Positions 25,451 to 42,152 of a stretch of DNA of 45,182 bases are shown here, piece by piece; the first letter of the stretch is position 1; each line of letters opens with the position of its first letter. Under the pieces are notes generated by a model. The model was not told the DNA's origin, did no database searches, and worked only from the letters and a program-made list of their open reading frames with translations. The position numbers and the translations under genes were made by a program. Source of the DNA: Peptostreptococcaceae bacterium (GTDB taxonomy: Bacteria; Bacillota; Clostridia; Peptostreptococcales; Filifactoraceae). Location of the stretch: the NCBI GenBank assembly GCA_030532905.1, contig JAUNKE010000011.1:1-45182 (forward strand). The letters are read 5' to 3'.

Positions 25451-25918
25451 ATTGGATGTTTTATTAAGCTGAATAGAAAAAATTTTGTTGCCGTCAAAAA
25501 ATTTTTGATGGCAACAAATGTATTGAAATCTAATTCGAATAGGAATATTTGATATCAATGCTTTGTGAGATTATTGCAGTGAAACCGTCTTATTTTATAG
25601 AGAAACAATAATCGAAATGAGTAAAAACTTGAACCGCAATTATAAAGTGGTTACAGACTGACGCTTTAATGATTTGATTTGTAGAAAAATAATTTTATTC
25701 TTTTCGTTTATCGTGATGTTTAACGCTCCAAAGGAATGGGTAATATGGATATCGAGCGGGAAAACTTTGGAAAAACTGTGGGAAAGGTTACAAAAGTTAC
25801 AAAGTGGATCCGTCATTACTTTCCTTTATTTATTAAGAGCGATTGTGTGTTTTCAAAGGTGAAAGTAATGAACAAGGCGATATTAGAAGCCTACGATTAG
25901 TTGCATACAGGGGGAAAC
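25451..25918. other. Leader/intergenic region upstream of the pilus cluster
   Basis: This 468-nt gap has no supported gene. A 62-codon frame at 25674-25862 starts with TTG and is not convincing. It holds the hairpin at 25484-25518, a possible promoter (TTGCAG near 25576 with TATAGA 16 nt on) and short AT-rich repeats such as TTACAAAAGTTACAAA near 25789. The length suggests a long regulatory leader for pilB, but I do not recognise a known riboswitch in it. Confidence 0.4.
25484..25518. terminator. Long hairpin after asnS
   Basis: A 17-nt arm at 25484-25500 pairs with 25502-25518, with a single G-T wobble; the centre is AAAAATTTTT. There is no T run on the plus side. On the minus strand the stem is followed by a T-rich stretch. 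It most likely ends or protects the asnS transcript. Confidence 0.5.
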
Positions 25919-27595
25919 ATGAGAAAGAAGCAAAGGCTTGGCGACATACTTGTAAATCACAATATGATAACACCGGAGCAACTGGAGAAGGCTTTAGCAG
26001 CACAAAAAGAATCAAAGAAAAAATTGGGTGAGGTTCTAATAGATTTAGGAATTATTGATGAGAATATTATATTGAAAACTTTGGAAGCCCAATTAAAGAT
26101 TCCTTATATTAACTTGAACGAATATATTATCAATCCGAATGCGGTCAAAATTATTTCTGAAAATATTGCCCGAAGATATAATATTATTCCCTTGAATGTG
26201 GAAGATGGAAAGATTCTACTTTCGATGTCCGACCCGCTGGATGTATTGGCGGTGGATGATGTTCAGGTTATCACCGGTTTGAGTGTTAAAGTGGTTATCA
26301 GTTCAAAATCGGATATCCAAAAGGCAATCAGCAAGTATTTTGATTCTTCGGAGAGTGCGCAAGAGGCTGTCAAAGAATTTGACTCTCAATTTCGTGAAAT
26401 TGAAGAAGACCAGGATGAAGAGGCGGATGATGTAGCCAATGCACCGATTGTACGACTTGTCAATTCGATGATATCACAGGCAGCAAGACTAAGAGCCAGC
26501 GATATTCATATTGAGCCGTTCGAAGATATGGTTCGGATTCGATTTAGAATTGACGGTGAGCTTGTGGAAAATATGGTTCTTCCTAGGAAAACTCACTCAG
26601 CATTAATCACCAGAATTAAAATTATCGGTAAGTTGGATATTGCGGAGCGAAGAATACCGCAGGACGGTCGTGTTGAAACGGTGGTGGATAGAATTCCAAT
26701 CGACTTGCGTATTTCCATCCTGCCGACAGTTTACGGTGAAAAAGTCGTAATGCGTTTGCTTTTCAGAAATGCAATTTCCGTTACGAAAGAACAACTTGGA
26801 TTTACCGCATACAACTTGGAACTTTTTGATAAAATCATCAAAGCGCCGGAAGGAATCATACTGGTTACCGGCCCAACGGGTTCCGGTAAATCCACAACAT
26901 TATATACAGTATTAAGAGAGTTAAATGATATTAAGAAAAATATTATAACAATAGAGGATCCTGTCGAATATAGACTTGAAGGGATAAATCAGGTACAGGT
27001 TAATACGAAAGCGGGTCTTACTTTTGCATCCGGATTGCGCTCAGTTCTTCGTCAAGACCCCGACATTGTCATGGTCGGTGAGATTCGAGATGCGGAGACG
27101 GCACAGATTGCAACAAGAGCCGCGATAACAGGTCACTTGGTTTTATCTACACTTCATACCAATGACACGGCGAGTACCATTTCGCGTTTTATCGACATGG
27201 GAGTCGAGTCCTACATGGTTTCTTCATCCGTAATCGGAGTTATCGCACAGCGATTGGTACGAAGAATTTGTACACGCTGTAAAGAAGTTCATGAGCTTAC
27301 CGATGAAGAAAAATTGATAACCAAAGACTTGGGAGTAAATGTTGCTTATAAAGGAAAAGGTTGTAATTACTGTTCCGGTTCGGGTTATGCAGGACGAATT
27401 GCGATTCATGAAATATTAGTAATGGACAGAGACATCCGTCGCATGATAGACAGAGGAAATGCAATTGACGAAATCAAAGAAGAAGCGATAAAAAAAGGAA
27501 TGAAGACTCTTAACAAAACCTGTGTAGATTTAATAAATGAGGGAATTACGACTATTGATGAGATGTTAAAAATAACTTATAGTGTTGACCAATAG
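25919..27595 (+). CDS. pilB: Type IV pilus assembly (extension) ATPase PilB
   Basis: PilB is the cytoplasmic hexameric ATPase that powers pilus polymerisation through PilC. The 558-residue protein has two MshEN-like motifs at residues 6-29 and 35-58. The T2SSE core follows, with Walker A GPTGSGKST near 320, an Asp box, Walker B VMVGEIRD and the His box LVLSTLHTNDTA. A zinc-binding tetra-cysteine site is formed by C451, C454, C482 and C485. I chose the ATG at 25919 after CAGGGGG; the frame could extend 6 codons. It opens the pilus cluster, and pilT follows after 8 nt. The motif repeats suggest control by cyclic di-GMP. Confidence 0.95.
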   Translation: MRKKQRLGDILVNHNMITPEQLEKALAAQKESKKKLGEVLIDLGIIDENIILKTLEAQLKIPYINLNEYIINPNAVKIISENIARRYNIIPLNVEDGKILLSMSDPLDVLAVDDVQVITGLSVKVVISSKSDIQKAISKYFDSSESAQEAVKEFDSQFREIEEDQDEEADDVANAPIVRLVNSMISQAARLRASDIHIEPFEDMVRIRFRIDGELVENMVLPRKTHSALITRIKIIGKLDIAERRIPQDGRVETVVDRIPIDLRISILPTVYGEKVVMRLLFRNAISVTKEQLGFTAYNLELFDKIIKAPEGIILVTGPTGSGKSTTLYTVLRELNDIKKNIITIEDPVEYRLEGINQVQVNTKAGLTFASGLRSVLRQDPDIVMVGEIRDAETAQIATRAAITGHLVLSTLHTNDTASTISRFIDMGVESYMVSSSVIGVIAQRLVRRICTRCKEVHELTDEEKLITKDLGVNVAYKGKGCNYCSGSGYAGRIAIHEILVMDRDIRRMIDRGNAIDEIKEEAIKKGMKTLNKTCVDLINEGITTIDEMLKITYSVDQ

Positions 27596-27603
27596 GAGAA
27601 GAA

Positions 27604-28665
27604 ATGAGAAAAATTGATACTGTATTAGACATAGCTTTTACAGAGGGGGCATCAGATGTTCACATTGCAACTCAAAGTCCGCCTATTATAAGAAAGCATG
27701 GTCGTTTGGAAAAATTACATGCCGAGCCGGTGACGCCGGAACAAAGCTTAGAGATCGTTCGATCCATTTTAGATGACAAGCAATGGGAAGTTTTGAAAAA
27801 TAAGGGACAAGTCGATTTTGCCTACGCTCTCAAGGGGAAAGCTCGATTCAGGGTGAATGCCTATCGACAAAGAGGTTCATACAATCTTGCCTTTCGTTTA
27901 ATCAATGACAAGATTCCATCGATGGAGCAACTGAGATTACCGAGTCTTCTCAAAGACTTATCAATGAAACAAAGAGGATTGATTTTGGTAACCGGACCGA
28001 CCGGTAGCGGTAAATCGACAACCTTGGCTGCAATGGTTGACCACATGAATCGTGTCAGAAATGATCATATTATTACAATTGAAGACCCGATAGAGTATTT
28101 ACATCGTCATGGCAACTGTGTTATCAACCAAAGAGAGCTTGGGGGAGATACATTAACTTTCGATGGAGCGCTTCGCGCAGCACTTCGTCAAGACCCGGAT
28201 GTTATACAGGTCGGAGAGATGCGAGATTTGGAGACGATCGCGACAGCACTCACTGCCGCAGAGACCGGTCACTTGGTAATGTCGACTCTACATACCGTCG
28301 GAGGAGCAAAATCCATCGACCGTATTGTGGATGCCTTTAATGCCGACCAACAAGGTCAGATAAGATTACAGCTTTCGACGGTATTGGAAGCAATTATTTC
28401 ACAGCAGATCATTCCAAGAGCGGATGGAAAAGGTCGTGTGGTGGCATTGGAAATCATGATTGCAACACCGGCTATTAGAAACCTGATAAGAGAGGCGAAG
28501 ACACCTCAGATTCAAACTCAAATTCAGACCGGCTCAAAATTTGGAATGAGAACGATGGATGCTTCATTAATAATGTTATACAGAAATGGAGATATATCGC
28601 TTGAGAATCTCAAACGATATGCAGTAGATCACGAGTATATAAGTAGAGAGATTGGAGTGATTTAA
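27604..28665 (+). CDS. pilT: Type IV pilus retraction ATPase PilT
   Basis: PilT depolymerises pili, enabling twitching motility and DNA uptake. The 353-residue protein has an N-terminal PAS-like domain with the SDVHIATQSPPIIRKHG signature. Walker A GPTGSGKST is near residue 131. DPIEYLHRHGNCVINQRELG follows, then Walker B IQVGEMRD and the His box LVMSTLHTVGGAKSIDRIV. The PilT-specific AIRNLIREAKTPQIQTQIQTG is near the C-terminus. It lacks the zinc cysteines of PilB, as expected. Its stop overlaps the pilC start (TAATG). A retraction motor inside the operon indicates dynamic pili. Confidence 0.96.
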   Translation: MRKIDTVLDIAFTEGASDVHIATQSPPIIRKHGRLEKLHAEPVTPEQSLEIVRSILDDKQWEVLKNKGQVDFAYALKGKARFRVNAYRQRGSYNLAFRLINDKIPSMEQLRLPSLLKDLSMKQRGLILVTGPTGSGKSTTLAAMVDHMNRVRNDHIITIEDPIEYLHRHGNCVINQRELGGDTLTFDGALRAALRQDPDVIQVGEMRDLETIATALTAAETGHLVMSTLHTVGGAKSIDRIVDAFNADQQGQIRLQLSTVLEAIISQQIIPRADGKGRVVALEIMIATPAIRNLIREAKTPQIQTQIQTGSKFGMRTMDASLIMLYRNGDISLENLKRYAVDHEYISREIGVI

Positions 28666-29882
28666 TGCCTAGTTTTAGATATAAAGAAGTCGATGCGAGC
28701 GGTACAACCGCTATAGGAACCGTTGTTGCGGGAAGTAAACAGGAAGTCGTAAGACTTATAAGAGAAAAGGGCAAACGCCCGATAATGATTCAAGAGCTTG
28801 AGGAAAAAAGCAAGGATATCAAGGAACTGGGAATATTTAACAAAAAACCGAATCTGAAGGATATTGCGATTTTTTGTAAACAGCTCAATATCATGTTGGC
28901 GGCAGGTATGCCGATTATCAATGCGCTTGAAGTGCTTGGCGCCCAAACGGAGAATAGAAGACTTCGTGAAGCGTTGATTGATATCTCTTTTGATGTCCAA
29001 AAAGGTACCGTATTCTCAAAATCCATGACAAAGTATGATGACATTTTTCCACCACTTATGATCAATATGGTGGTCGCGGGCGAGTTAACAGGTAAGCTGG
29101 ATGATGTTTTGGGAAAGCTTGCGGTTCACTATGAAAAAGAATATAAAATCAATAACAAAATGAAGTCGGCGATGATTTACCCGGCGGTACTTGCTGTAGT
29201 TTCAGTTGTTGTAGTTACCTTTATATTAGTTAAGGTAATGCCGATGTTTACGGATATGTTTACATCCGCCGGAGTGGAGTTGCCGATTACAACACGGATT
29301 TTGGTTACTATTAGTGAATTTTTACAGAAGAGATGGTATATCGTTTTAATATTCTTCGTTATATCGATATTCTTCGGTAGAAGTTATATAAAGAGTGAAA
29401 ACGGCAAGCGTAATTGGGATATTTTCTTATTGAGAATTCCTAAGATAAGTAAATATATAGCTATTATTGCTACAGCTCGATTCACAAGAACGATGTCTAC
29501 TTTGCTCTCCAGCGGTATTCCAATTATTCAAGCGATGGAATCCGCAGGAAAGGTTACGAATAACACTGTGATTATGGACTCCATGGGTGGAGCGGTGGAA
29601 GATGTTAAAAAAGGTGAGACATTGAGTTCGGTTTTGAGAAGGATTGAGATATTTCCTACGATGATGACATCGATGATTCATATCGGTGAAGAGTCCGGTT
29701 CTATTGAAGACATGCTCTCCAAGACGGCGGACTTCTACGATGAAGAATTTGAAACTGCTATCGCGCGAATGGTAGCGATGGTGGAACCCGCTATGATTAT
29801 TGTGATGGGTACAATCGTCGGATTCATAGTAATATCCATTATGATGCCGATGTTTGAAATGTCAAATGTTGTAGGTGGTTAA
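28665..29882 (+). CDS. pilC: Type IV pilus inner-membrane platform protein PilC
   Basis: PilC is the polytopic platform that couples PilB and PilT to pilin insertion in the cytoplasmic membrane. The 405-residue protein carries two T2SSF domains, at ~65-190 and ~265-395. Typical sequences are FCKQLNIMLAAGMPIINALEVL and FTRTMSTLLSSGIPIIQAMESA. There are hydrophobic segments near 165-190, 220-245 and 370-400. MIHIGEESGSIEDMLSKTADFYDEEFE is the second-domain hallmark. It is translationally coupled to pilT. The major pilin gene follows after 73 nt with its own strong ribosome binding site. Confidence 0.95.
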   Translation: MPSFRYKEVDASGTTAIGTVVAGSKQEVVRLIREKGKRPIMIQELEEKSKDIKELGIFNKKPNLKDIAIFCKQLNIMLAAGMPIINALEVLGAQTENRRLREALIDISFDVQKGTVFSKSMTKYDDIFPPLMINMVVAGELTGKLDDVLGKLAVHYEKEYKINNKMKSAMIYPAVLAVVSVVVVTFILVKVMPMFTDMFTSAGVELPITTRILVTISEFLQKRWYIVLIFFVISIFFGRSYIKSENGKRNWDIFLLRIPKISKYIAIIATARFTRTMSTLLSSGIPIIQAMESAGKVTNNTVIMDSMGGAVEDVKKGETLSSVLRRIEIFPTMMTSMIHIGEESGSIEDMLSKTADFYDEEFETAIARMVAMVEPAMIIVMGTIVGFIVISIMMPMFEMSNVVGG

Positions 29883-31594: not shown

Positions 31595-33445
31595 ATGCAA
31601 AAAAAATATAAATATAACGGCTTCACTCTGGTTGAAATATTGATTGCAATTGCGATTCTTTCGATTTTGGTAGCTTCTCTGGTTTTTATTATGGGGGATT
31701 CAATCAAAACTCATAAAAACACGAGTGATCTATATACTATTCAGACGAATGTTGTATATACATCCAATTCTTTGAATGAAGCTGTGCGTGAATCTACTGC
31801 AATTTTCGTGCTTGCTGAAAACAAATACAATCCTGCAAATATTACGGAGGATAAAATTGCGGCCGATACATCTACTTTGGGATTGACCGAGCAGTGGAAT
31901 TATATCGGTCCGAATGCTGAAAAAACAAAGATTTACAATTTTGTATGGGATCCTGTAAAAAAGGTTCATATACCATTTGAGTTAACCGTGGGTGAGAATG
32001 TCAAGGGCAAACTATTGACAGATATCAGTACTCTTGCTCCGGGAAAGTACATGGATCCTAAAATCAGATATGGTTTTTCGATTACTGACCAAAAAACTAA
32101 TATCCAAAAGCAGTTGGATTATTACAAAACAAAATCTACTTTAACTGAAGCGGAGAAAAGAGAAGTTAAGCTTCTTAATGAGAGATTATCAGATCAGAGA
32201 AGTGTGTTGAATTATTCAATCGATGGTTATCGTGAACTTATTACAGTAAATACAGATGGAACAAATACGATTGAGAAGGATACGCTGACACAACATATTA
32301 CTAATGCATCCGTAGAAGCTTTAAACACAAAACAAATTATTGATATTTCCGAAGGCAGAACTCCGACGGCTATTGCTTACAGAACTACGCCGATAAAGGA
32401 TATTGAGAAAGCAAAAAAACCTGCGGTAGCTTTGGTACTTGATTTTTCTTCCAGTATGACGGATGATTTGGATGCGTATAATTATCGTTATAAGAATAAT
32501 AAATCGTTGAAAGTATCCGTTCATTGGAGTCATGTAGCATTGGATGCACAGTCTTATCAATGGACTCGTAATGGGCGAGATGTCAAGTATAGAGTGAGCG
32601 ACGGTACCCTATATTATATGAAGAGAACTTGGAATTCGGCAAAGGGCGATTATGATTATTATGCGGAAACCAACGATGGAACCGGTAGAAGACTTTCGCC
32701 GAGCCAACTTGAGCCGATTCCGCAAGACCAACGCCGACTGGCGATATTGAAGCGTCAATATAAAGATCTTGTGAAGCGTTTTGCTGCACTTGGAGATGTT
32801 AATTTATATGTTGTTCCTTTCGCAGAACATGGGGAGAATCCTCGTATATTCCGTAATATATCTCAATCAAACGGAACTTCTTGGGAAGTGGAGCGTGATA
32901 AGTTTATTGCCAATTTGCCTTTTACTTTAACTAGACCGGCAACGGCTACACAAGACCAGAAAAAAGAAAACTTAGCCGCTGAGAATGGAATTGAAAAGAT
33001 GACCTTTGATGATTGGACAAATTATGCTGATGGTGTAAGAATAGGTTTATCTTATTTAGAAAAAGAGAAAAGAACAAATAGCAATCCAAACGGTTATTTA
33101 CTAGTTCTATCAGATGGCCAACCAAACAAACCGGATAGAAATAATCTGAAAGATCCTGTGATTCGAGATAGATTTCCTGGTGCAACCGGAGCTATGACTG
33201 CTATTGATGCTGCCATAAAGAATGCCGGTTATACACCGAAATTAGTTCATTTGATAGGATTTTCAAATGTTGCCGAAGACAATAAGCAATTAGAAAAAAT
33301 TAAAGGATACTTTATTAATTCTACAGGACTGGATAATGCAAAGGTTGTTGTCTATAAAACGGGTACCGATGAAGAACTTGAAAAAGCATTTAAAAAATTT
33401 GTTGAGGATGTTGAGCACGATTTATGGTATTTTAACGGACCATAA
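31595..33445 (+). CDS. Modular type IV pilin with von Willebrand A domain, probable adhesin
   Basis: The 616-residue protein starts as a pilin: 9-residue leader, cut G9|F10, then FTLVEILIAIAILSILVASL with Glu5. A pilin-like region with a charged coiled segment (~165-205) follows. From ~275 to 610 there is a von Willebrand A domain. The MIDAS metal-site residues are D283-S285-S287 in VLDFSSSM, T475 in DWTNYADG and D507 in VLSDGQP. About 90 residues are inserted between the first MIDAS loop and the following helix RLAILKRQYKDLVKRF. The layout matches PilB of Streptococcus sanguinis, a vWA pilin with a role in adhesion. It is 15 nt before the lectin-like pilin gene. Confidence 0.9.
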   Translation: MQKKYKYNGFTLVEILIAIAILSILVASLVFIMGDSIKTHKNTSDLYTIQTNVVYTSNSLNEAVRESTAIFVLAENKYNPANITEDKIAADTSTLGLTEQWNYIGPNAEKTKIYNFVWDPVKKVHIPFELTVGENVKGKLLTDISTLAPGKYMDPKIRYGFSITDQKTNIQKQLDYYKTKSTLTEAEKREVKLLNERLSDQRSVLNYSIDGYRELITVNTDGTNTIEKDTLTQHITNASVEALNTKQIIDISEGRTPTAIAYRTTPIKDIEKAKKPAVALVLDFSSSMTDDLDAYNYRYKNNKSLKVSVHWSHVALDAQSYQWTRNGRDVKYRVSDGTLYYMKRTWNSAKGDYDYYAETNDGTGRRLSPSQLEPIPQDQRRLAILKRQYKDLVKRFAALGDVNLYVVPFAEHGENPRIFRNISQSNGTSWEVERDKFIANLPFTLTRPATATQDQKKENLAAENGIEKMTFDDWTNYADGVRIGLSYLEKEKRTNSNPNGYLLVLSDGQPNKPDRNNLKDPVIRDRFPGATGAMTAIDAAIKNAGYTPKLVHLIGFSNVAEDNKQLEKIKGYFINSTGLDNAKVVVYKTGTDEELEKAFKKFVEDVEHDLWYFNGP

Positions 33446-33460: not shown

Positions 33461-35212
33461 ATGCAAAAAAGAAGAGGTTTCACTCTTAACGAAGCCATTA
33501 TAGCATTAGTTTTGTTTTCGCTTGTTGTGGGTTTTTTTGCTACAATATACTCAGCATCATATAAAACTACAAGACGAAGTAAGAGTGATATTAAACTTAC
33601 TTTTAAGGGGCAAGAACAAGTGGAGCAAGGTTTGGCAAGTCTCTCCGGTGAAGCTCAAAGGTGGGCGGATTACATCAATGCAAAGAAAAGTGACTCAAGT
33701 TTAGTGAAACCTGCTGATTTACAAGAACCGGACACAAAGCTGAATCTATGGGGTGGAGAGGTAAAAGGTTACTCTTATTACCACACTATAAAACCTGATA
33801 AACCAAATGAGCAGGGGTTGACTGCTGATGTATTCAGCTTTGTATATGCAAATGCCAGGCGTCCCGTTATTGCTTCGGTGGCATTTGTCTCTTCGATAAA
33901 ACCTGTTCCTAAGATTATATATCAGCAAAGCTATACAAGTACAAATGATTATTCTTACAAAATTAAAGTTGAAAACAGTGATGTACTATTAAGAGCGGTG
34001 GAGCGTGAATATCTTGGTAAGAAGCATTATGATGTTCAAGGTAAAAAATTTATAAGCAGACCGTATTCGAGTCGTAAATCAGCCGGTGAATTTGAACTTA
34101 CTCCTATATATGCATCACTATTTCCGGAGGCTTACAATATTATTTCGCCAAGGACAGGAAATGTTCTGTTCAAGCAGAATTCCATTCCTAAATTGGAAAG
34201 TGCAGTATCAATAGATATGTCTTCGTTTAAGAAAGATTCTTCGTTTAGTGATGTTGCACTATTAAAAACTGTACAGGCACAATCAATCAATGGATTTATT
34301 TCAGAAGAAATTGTAAATCCATATTCAGTAACTTGGTTAGTAGGCTTACCGGTTGTTGATAATTCCTTAATTGGACATTGGGATGCAAACTTGACTTTTG
34401 AGAGTAAATCTGATGAGAGTGTTGAGCAGTATCTATCCAACCAGGATCTTTCGGGAAAAACCTTAGACAACTTATTAACTGTTGCCGGGTATGCTAATAA
34501 AGATTCAAAGTTGAATGTTGTAGGACATCCTATTTTGAATGTTCGTGACACAAATGGAGATTACAGGCAATTTTCTAATGGAATTGCTATTCCATACTCT
34601 GACAATGCGAATAGCCGATTGCGGGTTGTTCCTTCCGTTACACAAGAACCTATAACTGTTATAATAAGAGCAAAACAATTAAATCCTAGCGGTAATTCTC
34701 CATTATTTTCTTTTAATATGGGGAATGACGGTAATGGAGTAGGAGGTGCTCTCGGTTTCCAATTTTATTTACATCCGAGTGCAACTCAAATTTCATATCG
34801 TTTAGACAGAGGAGCGACAACTCCAAATCCGACTCAAAGAATTATTGATATTCCATCTAACTTAACGGATGTATTCGCATATAACTCTATTACGCAGCAA
34901 GGTGATAGAGAAGGATATGCTATTTATGAGTTACAGATGATTCCAAGGCTTAACGGCTCGAATATAGAATATAATGCATCCGTGTTGGTTAATGGAAAGT
35001 ATAAGTATGATTTGATGTTAGCGGAGTATTTACCGTATAATGCGAGCACAAACGGAATTGAGATAGGATCTAATCTTGAAGTGTCGGATATAATATTATA
35101 TAATCGAATCTTGGCTATTGATGAATCAAAAGAAATTACGAAGTATCTATTGAATAAATATACTGTAGATGATAAAGAGAGAGATACAATTAAAACTAAT
35201 TTAGGATATTAG
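33461..35212 (+). CDS. Modular type IV pilin with lectin/LamG-like C-terminal domain, probable adhesin
   Basis: The 583-residue prepilin has a leader MQKRRG cut before FTLNEAIIALVLFSLVVGFF, with Glu5. The pilin head runs to about residue 290. Residues ~303-570 look like a concanavalin A-like jelly roll. The segment LIGHWDAN resembles the entry strand of LamG repeats. ITVIIRAKQL and LGFQFYLHP are typical inner strands, and VSDIILYNRIL near the end is a hallmark of LamG/lectin folds. It follows the vWA pilin, the same pairing as PilB and PilC of the Streptococcus sanguinis pilus. It probably binds glycans or a host or bacterial surface protein. The ligand cannot be read from the sequence. Confidence 0.85.
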   Translation: MQKRRGFTLNEAIIALVLFSLVVGFFATIYSASYKTTRRSKSDIKLTFKGQEQVEQGLASLSGEAQRWADYINAKKSDSSLVKPADLQEPDTKLNLWGGEVKGYSYYHTIKPDKPNEQGLTADVFSFVYANARRPVIASVAFVSSIKPVPKIIYQQSYTSTNDYSYKIKVENSDVLLRAVEREYLGKKHYDVQGKKFISRPYSSRKSAGEFELTPIYASLFPEAYNIISPRTGNVLFKQNSIPKLESAVSIDMSSFKKDSSFSDVALLKTVQAQSINGFISEEIVNPYSVTWLVGLPVVDNSLIGHWDANLTFESKSDESVEQYLSNQDLSGKTLDNLLTVAGYANKDSKLNVVGHPILNVRDTNGDYRQFSNGIAIPYSDNANSRLRVVPSVTQEPITVIIRAKQLNPSGNSPLFSFNMGNDGNGVGGALGFQFYLHPSATQISYRLDRGATTPNPTQRIIDIPSNLTDVFAYNSITQQGDREGYAIYELQMIPRLNGSNIEYNASVLVNGKYKYDLMLAEYLPYNASTNGIEIGSNLEVSDIILYNRILAIDESKEITKYLLNKYTVDDKERDTIKTNLGY

Positions 35213-35235: not shown

Positions 35236-36426
35236 ATGTTTAAGAAAAAATCTAAAGATGCTAATCCGAACGGTTCCGGAACGAAAACGAAAGGTGAAAG
35301 CAAACCCTTATTTTCTTCAAAAAAAACAACGGTTGCTCGAACTAAAAAAGCAAACAGACCATTGTATAAGAAAAAAGGGAATCGTTTTGTAGCAATGGAT
35401 TTAGGAAACTATGCGATTAAATTTGCAGTTGGAAATCAACAAGGGAACCGGATAAAAGTAGATAAAGTTTTTCGTGCGACTTTACCGGAGCATTTGTATG
35501 TTGACAGTACAATCAATGATGACCGCAAGTTATTGGACATCATAAAATCTGAACTATCTTCTAATGGAGTTAAAGACACAGATATTATCGTTTCGTTTGA
35601 AAGTACATCAATAATTAAGCGTCGTTTAACAGTACCTGCTTTATCAGATGCTGAGACGAAAGACTTAATTGGATTTGAATTGGAAGAATATCTTGGTATT
35701 AATCCCGATGATTATATTATTCAATATAAAATTCTTTCAGAATATGATAGAGAAGGTAAGAAAAGGGATATACAAATCGATGCTGTACCGAAAGCTATCT
35801 CAAAAAAGTTATTTTCTCTTTTGAAGCAAGGTGGATATAATCCGTGTATATTAGGTATTCAGTCGAATTTTATTGAAAATATGACAAACACTTTAGAAAT
35901 CAACGGGAATCGACCACAGTCAGGGAATGCGATAGCGGTAGCTGATATTGGGAATAGCGGAATTGTGGTTAATATTTTCAAAGATGGGAAGAGTGAATTT
36001 AACAGAATTATTCGTTCTACATCATCCTTAAGATATGCACTTATGTCTGAGCTTAGAATGGATGAGAGCACAGCATTATCTACTGTCAGAAGCTACTTTA
36101 ATAAAAGTTTGACTGCTTTTGCCGAGCCTGATTCCAGTGATGAAAAAATACTAAGCACTATGAAATCTTGCATCAATGAATGGTCAACCGAAATTGATAG
36201 GGTTCTTGAATATTATCGTTCGAGAAGTGTTGACAATAAAATCAGTAAATTGTTTATCTATGGTGGAGAAGTCATGATTCCGGAAATGGATCGTTATATT
36301 GAAGGAAGAATTGCAGTTCCTACGGAGATTATACGAAATATAAGCAATCTTGATGTTTCAAAAGATATAAATATAATAGATTTGCCGATTTATGTAAACC
36401 CAATTAGTGCATTGATCAGATCATAG
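35236..36426 (+). CDS. pilM: Type IV pilus assembly protein PilM
   Basis: PilM is an actin-like cytoplasmic protein that binds the N-terminus of PilN and links the machinery to the ATPases. The 396-residue protein has the ATP-binding start FVAMDLGNYAIKFAVG at ~51-66. It continues with VSFESTSIIKRRLTVPALSDAE, IGFELEEYLGINPDDY and a second phosphate site, VADIGNSGIVVNIF. The first ~50 residues are an added Lys/Ser/Thr-rich basic tail not seen in classical PilM, which begins right before the IDIG motif. GAGGGGG supports the start at 35236, so the tail is translated. pilN follows after 10 nt. Confidence 0.92.
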   Translation: MFKKKSKDANPNGSGTKTKGESKPLFSSKKTTVARTKKANRPLYKKKGNRFVAMDLGNYAIKFAVGNQQGNRIKVDKVFRATLPEHLYVDSTINDDRKLLDIIKSELSSNGVKDTDIIVSFESTSIIKRRLTVPALSDAETKDLIGFELEEYLGINPDDYIIQYKILSEYDREGKKRDIQIDAVPKAISKKLFSLLKQGGYNPCILGIQSNFIENMTNTLEINGNRPQSGNAIAVADIGNSGIVVNIFKDGKSEFNRIIRSTSSLRYALMSELRMDESTALSTVRSYFNKSLTAFAEPDSSDEKILSTMKSCINEWSTEIDRVLEYYRSRSVDNKISKLFIYGGEVMIPEMDRYIEGRIAVPTEIIRNISNLDVSKDINIIDLPIYVNPISALIRS

Positions 36427-36436
36427 GAGGTTTAAT

Positions 36437-37006
36437 ATGGAATATAATTTTTTTGAACCCTTTTTAAAGGACTCTAAATCAGAAAAGAAGACTTCTGCTA
36501 AAAGTTCCGGTGGGAATAATTTAATTTATATTGCAGCAATGGTTTTAGTAGTCGGGTTAGTAGGAGCATCTTTTGGATACACCCTTGTTGAAAAAAGTAA
36601 ATTGAACAAAGAAATTGCAGAAATAGATGCTTATTTTGCAGATGAAAGTATTAAAGTTCAAATTGCTGAGGTTGATGCTAAACTTGCGGAGATTGCGGAT
36701 ATAAAATTAAAGCAACAATACCTGCAGTATTTGGAACAGGATATGAAAAATATTGATATCGTAAATGATCGTCTTCTCGATTTTATTAAGAAAGAAGTTG
36801 TAAAGGATTTGACGATCGAAACTTTGAATATTAACAAAGGTAAAGTGGAATTACAAGGTTTATCTTTAAAGAAACTTGGTATTGCACAATTTGAATATGA
36901 TTTGCGTAATAGCGGTAATTTTTATGAAGTGTTTGTACCTTCAATCCAAAAACAAGATTCTTACTTTAAATTTGATATGAATTTTGATACAGTAGTGGGA
37001 GGTTAG
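36437..37006 (+). CDS. pilN: Type IV pilus assembly protein PilN
   Basis: PilN is a bitopic membrane protein that bridges PilM and PilO. The 189-residue protein has a 30-residue cytoplasmic N-terminus with NFFEPFL near the start, then a transmembrane helix (LIYIAAMVLVVGLVGASFGY, ~31-50). A coiled coil (~55-105) and a small ferredoxin-like domain end the protein. The classical PilM-binding INLLP motif is replaced by YNFFEPF, which could serve the same role. Identification rests mainly on position and topology between pilM and pilO, since the family is poorly conserved. The pilO start is 1 nt after its stop. Confidence 0.82.
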   Translation: MEYNFFEPFLKDSKSEKKTSAKSSGGNNLIYIAAMVLVVGLVGASFGYTLVEKSKLNKEIAEIDAYFADESIKVQIAEVDAKLAEIADIKLKQQYLQYLEQDMKNIDIVNDRLLDFIKKEVVKDLTIETLNINKGKVELQGLSLKKLGIAQFEYDLRNSGNFYEVFVPSIQKQDSYFKFDMNFDTVVGG

Positions 37007-37007
37007 T

Positions 37008-38786
37008 ATGAAAGTTAGTACCCGAGAAAAAATGCTCATATCGATTGTTGCTTTGTTGCTATTAGCCGCTCTGTATTTTAATTATTATTTGCTTCCACAA
37101 AAAGAGGAGATCAATTCTTTGCGCGCTGAAAGAGACCAAAAGCAAGAGCGTAAAATAATGATGGAAGAAAAGTTAGCAGATAGTAGAACTTTGGATCAGG
37201 AGTACATTGCATCAAAAAATGGAATTCTAAAAATGTCTAACAAGTTTTTTTCTGAAGTTGAGCAAGAAGAATTTATTCTTCTTATCAACGATTTAGCTGA
37301 TGAAGCGAATGTTGTAGTCAATCAAATTGATTTTGAAGAAACTGCAGGTACTGATGCAATTACAAGTTTTCAAGAAGGTCGCGAAAAATTAGATAAGTAT
37401 ACGGAGTTGATTGCTCAAAATAAAATTAAGGGATATGTAAAAAAGGATCTTGCAGTAATACCGGGAGAGGAAGAGAAAAAAGAAGAAGATTCCGATTCGG
37501 TAAAAGTTTCTTCCAAGATGAAAAAAGCTTCTAAGCTAAGCTCTGAAACGGAACAAAACACAAACCGGGAATCTGAAAATACCGAACCGAACACATCTGA
37601 AAATCCGGATGGTCAAATTCAGGGAGATGAAGCTCAGAACCAGGATACAAATCGAACTCCTGAAAATATTCAGCAGTCGGAAGACCCGAATGCGGTTACC
37701 TATGCAAATAATATTCGTGCTTTAGTTGCAACAGTTCAAATGGACGGTAGTTATGATGAAATTCATGAATTTGTTTCATTAATTGCGCAGAGCGAAAGAA
37801 ATATTATTGTTGAGAATATAAAGATTTCAACTAAAGATAAAGGAACTACTTCTAAATCAAATGTCTCTGAATTGAGAATTGTTTTCTACAAAGTAGTGGG
37901 TTTGGAAGATTATTTCTCTCATAAAGACAGTGTTTTGGTAAACGCGGTGGTAACGAAGTCGCAAAAAGCTTCTCCATTTATGCAATACTCATGGAGCTTT
38001 AAGCCGACATCACCGACATCAAGTGTTGCGACAAATCAATTAGGAAACCAAATTACTTTGCCTCAGCAATCGCAAAGTGTGATTCCTCCATTTGTTGTAT
38101 ATCCTTCGACACCGTCATATTCGACACCGATGCCTGCGCCGACACCTGCACCGGGAGGAACTTATGTACCGTCTACGCCGACACCGAATTCGGTTCCGGG
38201 TGACATGTCTTATACACCGGAGTACGAGCGTCTGTCTTGGGGCGGCTATGTGAAGCGTGATAAGCCGAGTGTTACTCCGAATGTAACACCACAGCTTCCG
38301 GAAGTTGTACCGAGCAATGTTATTCCTTTTGACAACTTGAGCGGATTGAAGCTTCAGTTGAATTCAAACGGAACAAAGAATTCCGGTTCATTAAAACTAT
38401 CCGATAAGAGTGGTTTGAGTAAGGAAGTAATGTCTTTGGATTACCATTTGGGTGAAGTTGGATATTATGGTGCTATTCGAATTGATTTAACAGATAAAAA
38501 TATTAAACTGAACCAAAAGACAACAGATATTATTCTAAAGGTAAAATCTGAGATGATGTCAGGTCATGACATTGGATTGGAAATTTTGGATGCTGACAAT
38601 AACACGCATCGTGTCGTTCTTTATGAAGACATCGACTGGACGGATTGGAAAGATGTTCGCGTTTTGAATCTTCCTAGAATCAGCTATCCGGCAACTGTAA
38701 AGAGTATTTATGTTTCAAGAGTGGAAGATGCAAGAGTTACTGATGCAAAACTATACTTTGATTCATTATCATACACTTATAAGTAA
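37008..38786 (+). CDS. pilO: Enlarged PilO with C-terminal carbohydrate-binding-like domain
   Basis: PilO pairs with PilN in the cytoplasmic membrane and aligns the pilus machine. Here it is 592 residues instead of ~200. A transmembrane helix (~10-30) and coiled coil (~32-60) are followed by the first part of the extracytoplasmic domain. An acidic, Asn/Glu/Ser-rich insertion comes at ~150-228, then the ferredoxin-like core with VQMDGSYDEIHEFVSLIAQSERNIIVENI (~243-271). A Pro/Ser/Thr-rich stalk spans ~333-430. The C-terminal ~155 residues look like a beta-sandwich: LEILDADNNTHRVVLYEDI, WTDWKDVRVLNLP and KLYFDSLSYTY resemble the C-terminal domain of secreted phosphodiester glycosidases. The stalk and domain would face the cell wall. 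A terminator ends the unit. Confidence 0.85.
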   Translation: MKVSTREKMLISIVALLLLAALYFNYYLLPQKEEINSLRAERDQKQERKIMMEEKLADSRTLDQEYIASKNGILKMSNKFFSEVEQEEFILLINDLADEANVVVNQIDFEETAGTDAITSFQEGREKLDKYTELIAQNKIKGYVKKDLAVIPGEEEKKEEDSDSVKVSSKMKKASKLSSETEQNTNRESENTEPNTSENPDGQIQGDEAQNQDTNRTPENIQQSEDPNAVTYANNIRALVATVQMDGSYDEIHEFVSLIAQSERNIIVENIKISTKDKGTTSKSNVSELRIVFYKVVGLEDYFSHKDSVLVNAVVTKSQKASPFMQYSWSFKPTSPTSSVATNQLGNQITLPQQSQSVIPPFVVYPSTPSYSTPMPAPTPAPGGTYVPSTPTPNSVPGDMSYTPEYERLSWGGYVKRDKPSVTPNVTPQLPEVVPSNVIPFDNLSGLKLQLNSNGTKNSGSLKLSDKSGLSKEVMSLDYHLGEVGYYGAIRIDLTDKNIKLNQKTTDIILKVKSEMMSGHDIGLEILDADNNTHRVVLYEDIDWTDWKDVRVLNLPRISYPATVKSIYVSRVEDARVTDAKLYFDSLSYTYK

Positions 38787-38839: not shown

Positions 38840-39610
38840 ATGATAGGAGCCATATTTTTTATTTATGGATTATTGTTTGGGAGTTTTTACAATGTGCTCA
38901 TTTACAGACTTCCGTTGGATAAACCCGTCCACAAAGGACGATCCTATTGCCCGAATTGTAACACGAAATTAAAAGCATGGGACTTGATTCCTGTTTTCAG
39001 CTATGTATTTCTGGGAGGAAAGTGTCGCTATTGTAAAAATGAAATATCTTTTCGTTACCCGACAATTGAACTTATAACGGGGGCATTGTTCTTTTTATCG
39101 TATCGCCTTTACGGAGTAAGTCATCAGACCTTTTTATTCATTTCATTCTGGTCGATGCTGCTGATTGTAACGATGATTGACTGGGATCATCTGGTCATAA
39201 TGGATATCGTTTTGGGCGTTTTTTCCATTATCAATTTGGGAATTGTAGCTTTCGGGCTTCGATATGATTGGACGCATTATATCTACGGTGTCGCTATCGG
39301 AATGATTTTTTATTCCATTATCTATTTTGTTTCCAAGATGATTTATAAAAAGGAGGCTTTCGGCTCCGGGGATATTTTTCTGATTGGAGCGATAGGAATT
39401 GTTCTCGGTGGAAAAATGACATTGGTTACTTCGTTGTTGGCATTTTATGTAGCATTGTTTGGGATTTTGATTTTTAGATTGTTTGGCAAGAAAGTAGGGC
39501 GTCAAACTGAAATTCCGTTCGGACCGTCGGTCTGCATCGCCGCATTCGTCATGTCGATTTACGGTGAAGAGATTGTAGCGTTCTTATATCGATTGATGGG
39601 ATATCAGTAA
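38840..39610 (+). CDS. pilD: Prepilin peptidase / N-methyltransferase PilD
   Basis: PilD removes the basic leader of prepilins and methylates the new N-terminus. The 256-residue membrane protein has about eight hydrophobic segments and the N-terminal GSFYNVLIYRLP. A cytoplasmic methyltransferase loop carries two CxxC pairs (YCPNC and CRYC). The two catalytic aspartates of the aspartyl protease site lie in MIDWDHLVI and FGSGDIFLIGAIG. All required residues are present, so it is expected to be a bifunctional enzyme. AGGGAGG precedes the start. It must process the five pilin-like proteins encoded upstream, including one with Ala at -1. Confidence 0.96.
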   Translation: MIGAIFFIYGLLFGSFYNVLIYRLPLDKPVHKGRSYCPNCNTKLKAWDLIPVFSYVFLGGKCRYCKNEISFRYPTIELITGALFFLSYRLYGVSHQTFLFISFWSMLLIVTMIDWDHLVIMDIVLGVFSIINLGIVAFGLRYDWTHYIYGVAIGMIFYSIIYFVSKMIYKKEAFGSGDIFLIGAIGIVLGGKMTLVTSLLAFYVALFGILIFRLFGKKVGRQTEIPFGPSVCIAAFVMSIYGEEIVAFLYRLMGYQ

Positions 39611-39679: not shown

Positions 39680-42130
39680 TTAGCCGCCATTGTTTCCGCC
39701 GCCGCTGCTTCCGCCGTCAAATATCGGGTCGTTGCTCGGTGGTTGTGTTTGCTCCGGTGGATTTCCTCCGGTGCCCGGGTCGGTGACCGGTGGGGTGATG
39801 TCGATGACATCGCCTTCTTCACCTTCCTCCGTAAGCAACGGATTCTCTTCCGGTGGTGGAGCGGTATGCAGATGGCAGGACTCTTTCGGAGTGGTTCCCG
39901 CGACAAAGTATTCTTTTCGAACATGCGTACAATATTCCGTTGCCTGCTCGCCGCTTTCGTCACAGATGGAGAGTCCGACGATGCCCGACGGCATGACAAA
40001 GTTTTTGGCGGCAAGTCCGCTATGAACTTTGTTCATGATTTTTCCCCAAAGTGCGGAAGGAACATCACTGGTCATATTCAAATCTTTCGGGATATCTTCG
40101 CCAATCCAAACGGCGCCGGTATAATAAGGGGTGAATCCGACAAACCAAACATCCTTTTCGTCGTTGGTCGTTCCGGTTTTTCCGGCGGTTGCCTGATTAC
40201 GAACCTTCGCTCTTGCGCCCGTTCCTTTGCTGACAACATCCTGCATCATGCTGGTCATCAGATAAGCAATCTGCGGGGATGCAATTTTTTTCGTTTCCGC
40301 CACTGCGTCATAGACGACGGTGCCGGTTGAAGTTTCTATTCGTTTTACAAAAATCGGTTTGGTATAGACTCCGTTGTTTGCGATTGTTGCATAAGCGGAA
40401 GTCATATCCATCGGTGTGGTACCGTAGGTCATACCGCCTAATGCAAGTGAAAGGTTCTCGTCATTGTGTGCACGATCCATATCACGAGTAACAACGGTGG
40501 AAAGTCCCAATTTCTGCAGCATGTCAATCATGACATTCGGTCCGACAATTTTTGCTACACGAACCGCACCGACATTCGATGATTTGATAATTAAATTTCG
40601 TATAGTGGTCGGGCCATCGTAATAGCTGCCGTAGTTTTTCGGTTTATAGCTTCCCTCGGTAATCGGTTTGTCATCAACCGGAGAGCCCGGTGTAAAACCA
40701 TGCAACAATGCCGGCAAATAAACGGCAATCGGCTTGATGGATGAGCCCGGCTGACGAGGGTTGAGTGCACGATTGTAAATTTTGCTTCCACCGATACCGC
40801 GACCGCCGATCAATCCGCGCACAAAACCGTTGGATTGTTGCATAACAACTGCAGCAACCTGTGGTTGAAGCACACCTTCTTCGGTCGTTCTCGTTCTCGG
40901 ATAGTTTGCGCTGTTGTTGACTTCATTTTCCAAAATCGCTTGGATTTTCGGATCCATTGTCGAGTAAATACGAAGTCCGCCGCCGACCATAATGTCCTGC
41001 GCTTCTTCGTCCTCATAGCCCAAGCCTTTCAATATTGATAAAGTCTCCACCTGAACTTTGTCGGCAAAGTAGGATGAGACATTGGTTTGCTTATTTTTTC
41101 CTATCTTCACGACGATTGGCTCCGCAGCTGCGGCATCTCGTTCCTGTTGAGTGATGAACTCATTTTTTACCATCATATCAAGAACCAGTTCCTGTCTTTC
41201 TTTTGCCGCCGGATTGAGCATGGCTTTTCGCGCGTACAATTCGCCGTTTTTGAGTTGAACATAATCGTATCGGGAAATCAATCCTTTGCCCAGCAATCGT
41301 CCGTAGAGTTTTTGGTCTTCGTCCGTCGGTGGCGGCACTTCCGAATTTTCATCGCGCACCAGAAGTCGTATTTGCGCTCCGTCCAAATTTTCGTCCGCCG
41401 CCATCGGTGCCGTTACATAGACCGAAAACTTCGAAGGGTTTTTCGGAATTGCGGCAAGCATTGCCGATTCCGCTAAAGTCAGTTTGGAAACATCTTTATT
41501 AAAATAATGACGCGATGCCGCTTGGACACCGTAATTTCCTCGTGCAAGGTTGATTTTGTTCAGATAGTAATACATAATCTGATCTTTGCTCAACACTTTT
41601 TCAATTTGGAGTGCATTATAAGCATCCGTAATTTTTCGGTCGAGACTTCTGTCGGGACCGGTATAAAGGTTTTTTGCAAGCTGCATCGTGATAGTGGATG
41701 CTCCTTGCTCAAGGCTTCGGGTTTTGATGTCATGCCACAATGCACCGAACACACGCTTGATATCCACGCCGTTATGTTGCTCGAAGCGCTCATCCTCGAT
41801 GGCGATAACCGCCTCTTGAAGATGTTTTGGGATTTGCTCTATCGGAACAACGATTCGAGTGATGTTGCGGCTGCTGGAAACTCGCTCCAGCAAATTGCCC
41901 TGTGAGTCATAGATAAAAGATGTATCTTCCAGTAAGTCGGAAATTTTTGTGGGGTCGATGGGGTCGGCATTTTTGACGACATATAATGTATAACCGCCCA
42001 GCGTTACGCCGCCTACAAAAATTGTGGTGAATACGAGTAGGAGTAAAACCTTAAATATACTTACTCTTTTTCTTCGTTTCTTTCGACTTTTTTTCTTTGG
42101 TTGATTTTCTTCGTTTGTTGTTAGAAACAT
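39680..42130 (-). CDS. Class A penicillin-binding protein (PBP1A family)
   Basis: This bifunctional peptidoglycan synthase polymerises glycan strands and cross-links peptides. The 816-residue form has a basic cytoplasmic tail, one transmembrane helix (~26-50) and a GT51 glycosyltransferase domain. The catalytic E112 sits in EDERFEQHNG, and GASTITMQLAKNLY follows. The transpeptidase domain has SxxK at S463-K466, SSN at 517-519 and KTGT at 651-654. The C-terminus holds several cysteines (~723-752), then an acidic, Pro/Gly/Asn-rich tail of ~60 residues. I chose the start at 42130 because AGGAGG lies 6 nt upstream; the frame extends 7 codons further. It is convergent with pilD. Confidence 0.95.
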   Translation of the reverse strand: MFLTTNEENQPKKKSRKKRRKRVSIFKVLLLLVFTTIFVGGVTLGGYTLYVVKNADPIDPTKISDLLEDTSFIYDSQGNLLERVSSSRNITRIVVPIEQIPKHLQEAVIAIEDERFEQHNGVDIKRVFGALWHDIKTRSLEQGASTITMQLAKNLYTGPDRSLDRKITDAYNALQIEKVLSKDQIMYYYLNKINLARGNYGVQAASRHYFNKDVSKLTLAESAMLAAIPKNPSKFSVYVTAPMAADENLDGAQIRLLVRDENSEVPPPTDEDQKLYGRLLGKGLISRYDYVQLKNGELYARKAMLNPAAKERQELVLDMMVKNEFITQQERDAAAAEPIVVKIGKNKQTNVSSYFADKVQVETLSILKGLGYEDEEAQDIMVGGGLRIYSTMDPKIQAILENEVNNSANYPRTRTTEEGVLQPQVAAVVMQQSNGFVRGLIGGRGIGGSKIYNRALNPRQPGSSIKPIAVYLPALLHGFTPGSPVDDKPITEGSYKPKNYGSYYDGPTTIRNLIIKSSNVGAVRVAKIVGPNVMIDMLQKLGLSTVVTRDMDRAHNDENLSLALGGMTYGTTPMDMTSAYATIANNGVYTKPIFVKRIETSTGTVVYDAVAETKKIASPQIAYLMTSMMQDVVSKGTGARAKVRNQATAGKTGTTNDEKDVWFVGFTPYYTGAVWIGEDIPKDLNMTSDVPSALWGKIMNKVHSGLAAKNFVMPSGIVGLSICDESGEQATEYCTHVRKEYFVAGTTPKESCHLHTAPPPEENPLLTEEGEEGDVIDITPPVTDPGTGGNPPEQTQPPSNDPIFDGGSSGGGNNGG

Positions 42131-42152
42131 AATTATCCTCCTAATCAGCAAT

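Follow-up and report, generated by a model that had tools for sequence, protein, structure and literature searches.

The window, that is, the whole analysed stretch of 45,182 nt, contains a type IV pilus gene cluster in which pilO is preceded immediately by pilM and pilN and followed by pilD. Each of the three neighbours has Pfam support: pilM (35236–36426, plus strand) matches PilM_2 (E 3e-22), pilN (36437–37006, plus strand), encoding the partner of PilO, matches PilN (E 1e-8), and pilD (38840–39610, plus strand), encoding the prepilin peptidase, matches A24_N_bact (E 1e-32) as well as Peptidase_A24. Upstream of pilM-pilN-pilO lie several prepilin genes together with those for the extension ATPase PilB (25901–27595), the retraction ATPase PilT (27604–28665) and the membrane platform protein PilC (28665–29882), all three on the plus strand. 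These three were recognised in the sequence by eye and have homologues within the pil clusters L164 (pilB), L164 and L165 (pilT), and L163 and L164 (pilC). Since pilT is present, the pilus machine is expected to pull.

Two of the prepilins are very large (31595–33445 and 33461–35212, both on the plus strand). One has a von Willebrand-A-like stretch (a weak Pfam match) and the other a C-terminal part that looks lectin- or LamG-like by eye, and the pair is reminiscent of PilB and PilC, which are modular pilins in Streptococcus sanguinis. On the other side of the cluster, a gene for a class A penicillin-binding protein (identified by eye; 39680–42151, minus strand) is convergent to pilD.

The pilO gene (37008–38786, plus strand) starts with ATG, has no internal stop codons and encodes 592 aa including a C-terminal extension. 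It is the only match to Pfam PilO in the 2.48-Mb genome. Full-length orthologues occur in two genomes of the same genus (Peptostreptococcaceae MAGs), with 55–57% identity over residues 4–592. A frameshift or an assembly error could in principle have joined two genes here, as the original prediction had cautioned; we found nothing in favour of this, and the independent full-length orthologues, together with the same architecture across families, exclude such a mis-join for practical purposes.

Taken alone, the window protein falls below the Pfam PilO cut-off of 22 bits (17.3 bits in the protein and 20.3 in the genome search). Its orthologues from loci L013 (24.2 bits) and L157 (27.7 bits) pass that cut-off unaided, and a profile built from 22 aligned PilO cores matches the Myxococcus xanthus PilO (3jc8) with an E of 8.3e-7 over both halves of the core. 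Because of these two results, and together with the gene order and the N-terminal topology, the identity of the window protein as PilO is secure.

A positively charged N-terminus precedes a transmembrane helix at residues ≈9–31 (37032–37100, plus strand), which was read from the sequence and is aligned in all 22 cores. A hydrophobic helix followed by an alignable core is what the alignment of these 22 PilO sequences displays, and by analogy the remainder of the protein would lie outside the membrane. The helix is followed by a probable coiled coil and the first part of the core at residues ≈32–115 (37101–37352, plus strand), as placed by the 22-core alignment, with a T2SSM-type Pfam match below the cut-off at residues 3–65. 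The second part of the core, residues ≈236–315 (37713–37952, plus strand), includes a Pfam PilO match below the cut-off (residues 241–282), is covered by the core profile aligned to 3jc8, and is probably ferredoxin-like by analogy. Between the two parts, residues ≈116–235 (37353–37712, plus strand) form a low-complexity, partly acidic insert, recognised from the composition of residues 150–232 and from a gap region in the core alignment.

Behind the core comes a stalk rich in Pro, Ser and Thr at residues ≈331–436 (37998–38315, plus strand), delimited by its composition (21% P, 25% S and T, 46% for the three together), and then a terminal domain at residues 437–592 (38316–38783, plus strand). 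The original prediction of a 592-residue PilO with such a stalk and a C-terminal domain of about 155 residues was therefore correct. It needs adjusting in that the core is also split by the insert, and in that the extension is common to the genus and also occurs more widely in its order and class. Compared with the same-genus orthologues, the terminal domain is 72–75% identical, the membrane helix and coil 49–56%, the ferredoxin-like part 52–56%, the core insert 48–49% and the stalk, which varies most between these proteins, 39–49%. Within the genus the terminal domain is thus by far the best conserved part of PilO, and this sequence conservation argues for a selected function rather than drift.

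The terminal domain was modelled with AlphaFold2 on a 30-sequence alignment. The model is a compact β-sandwich of 11 strands (pLDDT 92.5, pTM 0.88) with a jelly-roll fold, as had been anticipated. Its best fold match in the PDB is the spirochaete flagellar sheath protein FlaA1 (9cyn; Foldseek E 7e-8; VIA Z 16.1, rmsd 2.8 over 153 aligned residues), followed in Foldseek and VIA-align by the carbohydrate-binding modules CBM61, CBM11, CBM4, CBM22, CBM27, CBM28, CBM29 and CBM30. Further matches are the N-terminal domain of chondroitinases and NDUFAF1 (7zkq), an assembly factor. As the FlaA sheath and NDUFAF1 share the fold and have other roles, the fold alone is no proof of glycan binding.

At the sequence level, the domain itself matched neither a CBM nor any other Pfam family at an E of 0.1, and one of 30 relatives of the domain weakly matches CBM_11. 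A sequence search of the PDB with the domain profile gave weak matches to FlaA (E 2e-4) and to CBM61 (2xom, 0.42). The resemblance to the FlaA sheath is thus seen both in the sequence profile and in the structure (Z 16.1), which hints that the module at the pilus base and the protein of the flagellar sheath go back to a common ancestor.

The domain had also been said to recall the jelly roll of phosphodiester glycosidases, and this likeness turned out to be real homology. When the set of PilO tails was compared with the set of glycosidase-associated domains, hhalign gave a probability of 99.9% and an E of 1.6e-35 over 152 columns, and on this sequence comparison residues 437–592 are homologous to a domain of secreted NAGPA-type phosphodiester glycosidases (PF09992). 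Among 39 open reading frames bearing the domain, nine are PilO (including that of the window), 28 have the NAGPA catalytic domain upstream of it, one is cut off by the end of a contig, and the last encodes a PilN-like membrane protein (L008). The catalytic domain PF09992 is carried, for example, by L016 and L021, and some phosphodiester glycosidases, namely those of L191, L193 and L196, have two tandem copies of the jelly-roll domain. The window PilO was considered as such an enzyme and rejected, there being no match to PF09992 in the protein.

The PilN-like protein comes from a genome of the same family (G005; L162, identical to L008; 9084–9959, minus strand). Its 291 aa comprise a membrane helix, the jelly roll and, at the N-terminus, the PilN-type motif MRDFNFFS, and it is the only recognised pil gene on its 10-kb contig. 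A 512-aa PilO is also encoded in this genome, together with pilM and pilN in the pil cluster L166.

Other extended PilO proteins in Clostridia, which the original prediction proposed to look for, are common. A match to the PilO core was found in 143 of 392 Clostridia genomes, and about half of the matches listed (61/116) lie in reading frames of more than 330 aa. PilO genes were extracted from ≈160 loci, and 76 long PilO proteins were analysed for tail modules. The jelly roll is present in 24 of them, while 37 have a second all-β tail, here called C2 (both at ≥60 bits). Pfam additionally identified LysM in 13 (12 of which have the jelly roll too) and SLH, SPOR and NPCBM in one each; the examples of these four families that were checked individually score above the curated cut-offs and are C-terminal.

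The remaining Pfam matches on the long PilO proteins are the PilO core, plant-type LysM models that overlap LysM, and Lyase_N, a weak match to the jelly roll in one case. The families DUF6377, DUF6709 and Chordopox_G3 gave weak matches as well; in L107, the case in which the position is given, the match is to the N-terminal coiled coil. Every C-terminal PilO domain that Pfam recognises and that can be located belongs to a wall- or glycan-binding family. The tail variants are real PilO proteins, as pilM or pilN is found just upstream in 104 of the 111 PilO loci at ≥60 bits, including the SPOR, SLH and LysM variants, and likewise in the NPCBM locus L157.

The C2 tail is a conserved C-terminal region of ≈140 aa, predicted by AlphaFold2 to be all-β (pLDDT 93.8), and the loci bearing it include L019, L020, L028, L031, L038–L056, L124–L127 and L151. 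A fold search against the PDB gave no match (best Foldseek E 0.7, best VIA Z 3.2), and within the loci searched C2 occurs on no open reading frame other than PilO. It neither supports nor weakens a glycan-binding reading of the tails. One genus (G677, G697 and G717; L151/L153 and L152) has both PilO proteins that end in C2 (419–420 aa) and a short PilO of 214 aa, so that tailed and tailless forms can be compared between close relatives.

A maximum-likelihood tree of the PilO core requires at least 17 changes of architecture, a rough count because the deep branches are weak. Exchange at the same place is seen in two well-supported sister pairs, i.e., SPOR against jelly roll in L005/L010 (support 100/96) and jelly roll against LysM in L009/L048 (support 100/85).

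Monoderms are not known to have PilQ. A profile search of the window genome gave no secretin, and only one of the 392 Clostridia genomes has a secretin above the cut-off. The PilO reading frames were compared in a phylum-wide sample, measured from stop to stop among matches listed to an E of ≈6e-7, a few of which may be type II secretion proteins. Among these, all 22 secretin-bearing genomes have PilO frames of 179–226 aa, as against frames above 240 aa in 68 of 118 secretin-less genomes and above 330 aa in 21 of 118.

Counted once per family, PilO above 240 aa is found in 0 of 13 families with a secretin and in 32 of 52 without (p 6e-5); above 330 aa the figures are 0 of 13 and 9 of 52 (p 0.19), which is a weak contrast. 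This is a correlation between families that are not independent even when thinned to one value each, and it points the way expected if the tail takes the place of a function linked to the secretin. Many secretin-less Clostridia have a short PilO, and these presumably manage without such a tail.

The explanation we favour is that the jelly roll on the PilO tail binds a wall polymer and so anchors or positions the retractile pilus motor in the thick wall, which we consider probable on the basis of the sequence comparisons and structural models. The PilO core would lie alongside PilM and PilN where the pilus is rooted in the membrane, and the Pro/Ser/Thr stalk would let the jelly roll reach into the wall, where it most likely binds either the peptidoglycan glycan or a secondary wall glycan. 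A tail bound in this way could secure the motor when the pilus pulls and retain it beneath an opening in the wall. The binding of a wall glycan, the kind of glycan and the mechanical effect, be it anchoring or positioning, are all things we infer from homology, from replacement and from correlation. Anchoring is indirectly supported by the recognised wall- or glycan-binding domains that some relatives have at the same place in PilO. Of the original prediction, the PilO identity, the CBM-like β-sandwich and the likeness to the glycosidase domain stand as proposed, while the anchoring role gains indirect support from LysM, SLH, SPOR and NPCBM in relatives and from the lack of extended PilO in the secretin-bearing genomes listed.

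The main rival to wall anchoring is that the jelly roll is a protein–protein module with no glycan binding, which might form a collar above the PilM-PilN-PilO ring or hold a pilin or a surface-layer protein. The closest fold match being a flagellar sheath protein fits this, as does the fold shared with the assembly factor NDUFAF1, and the common C2 tail, likewise all-β and lacking a match to a glycan-binding fold, leaves room for it. We nevertheless consider it rather unlikely, since the modules that replace the jelly roll in sister proteins belong to wall- or glycan-binding families, and the domain is otherwise found in Clostridia on secreted enzymes whose targets are sugar-phosphodiester bonds.

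The tail might instead help the filament through the wall by guiding or recruiting wall-opening enzymes, and carry no load. Translocation across peptidoglycan is one of the two options named by Pelicic in 2019 (PMC6916266), and SPOR, which is found on one PilO, recognises denuded glycan (PMC5285504). The window PilO itself has no catalytic domain, however, and sequence can scarcely tell such a role apart from anchoring, with which it is compatible; as an alternative we find it improbable. Less credible still is a domain displayed outside the wall as an adhesin for host or environmental polysaccharides. A CBM-like domain would suit that function, but this one belongs to a protein at the machine's base, and a stalk of ≈100 residues is probably too short to pass far beyond a thick wall. 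Moreover, the LysM, SLH and SPOR domains that occupy this position in relatives bind to the wall of the cell itself, and the adhesive domains of the operon sit on the pilins.

Wall anchoring by the window PilO may be one case of a wider arrangement. In monoderm Clostridia PilO could be a general wall anchor of the type IV pilus, in which the C-terminal module can be swapped (for jelly roll, LysM, SLH, SPOR, NPCBM or C2), grips the wall polymer of the respective lineage and takes over the load-bearing and positioning task that PilQ, PilP and TsaP have in diderms. We lean only slightly towards this broader reading.

These results bear on the question of how a retractile pilus crosses a thick wall and pulls against it when there is no outer-membrane ring. 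A review from 2019 listed the non-canonical monoderm PilO as one possible answer; it pointed out that in monoderms PilO exceeds PilN in size and that its similarity to other PilO is limited to the N-terminal part, and called a role in crossing the wall or anchoring in it "entirely speculative" (PMC6916266). PilO-LysM was described in 2026 from three Chloroflexota, where it lies next to genes of the archaellum (PMC13319060). Neither the notion that monoderm PilO is bifunctional nor the PilO-LysM fusion in Chloroflexota is new. In searches of the open-licence literature, no title or abstract described a fusion of PilO with SLH or a carbohydrate-binding module, and we found no description in open-licence papers of jelly-roll, SLH, SPOR, NPCBM or C2 tails on PilO, or of their exchange within Clostridia. 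New here are the survey of modules, the identity of the jelly roll on the window PilO and the C2 tail without a match in the PDB. The exchange of modules at one place in PilO, together with the lack of long tails in the secretin-bearing genomes listed, makes a hypothesis of the earlier speculation, one for which the domain and its boundaries are defined and natural comparators exist.

Compared with the PilO of diderm type IVa systems (Pseudomonas aeruginosa and M. xanthus; PF04350), the window protein shares the pilM-pilN-pilO gene order and, judging by the core alignment, probably also the N-terminal membrane helix, the coiled coil and the two-part core. Diderm PilO has ≈200 aa and ends after the core, whereas the window PilO adds the core insert, the stalk and the jelly roll. 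The large PilO of S. sanguinis (formerly PilH) is likewise a monoderm PilO much larger than PilN and similar to other PilO proteins in its N-terminal part only; its extension is not assigned to a domain in that work, and the likeness drawn here is one of description, not of sequence (PMC6916266). Litorilinea aerophila and two other Chloroflexota share with the Clostridia a wall-binding module on PilO and the lack of PilQ and PilP (PMC13319060). Their fusions are reported as rare and lie beside archaellum genes without pilM, in contrast to those of Clostridia, which are common, lie in pilM-pilN-pilO operons and involve at least five kinds of module.

The NAGPA glycosidases (PF09992) have the homologous jelly roll behind their catalytic domain, which the window PilO lacks. 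CBM61, CBM11, CBM4, CBM27 and the FlaA sheath share the jelly-roll fold with the PilO tail at 7–17% sequence identity. As to function, the closest counterparts are the AMIN domains of PilQ and the LysM domains of TsaP and FimV, which are peptidoglycan-binding parts of the pilus machine that position or hold it (PMC5285504). The PilO of P. aeruginosa is positioned by the peptidoglycan-binding AMIN domains of PilQ together with the LysM domain of FimV, and anchoring against the pulling force has been proposed (PMC5285504). These domains differ from the PilO tail in that their folds are unrelated and that proteins other than PilO carry them, in cells that possess an outer membrane; the PilO tail might be the counterpart, in cells with one membrane, of the AMIN domains of PilQ and of the LysM proteins TsaP and FimV in cells with two.
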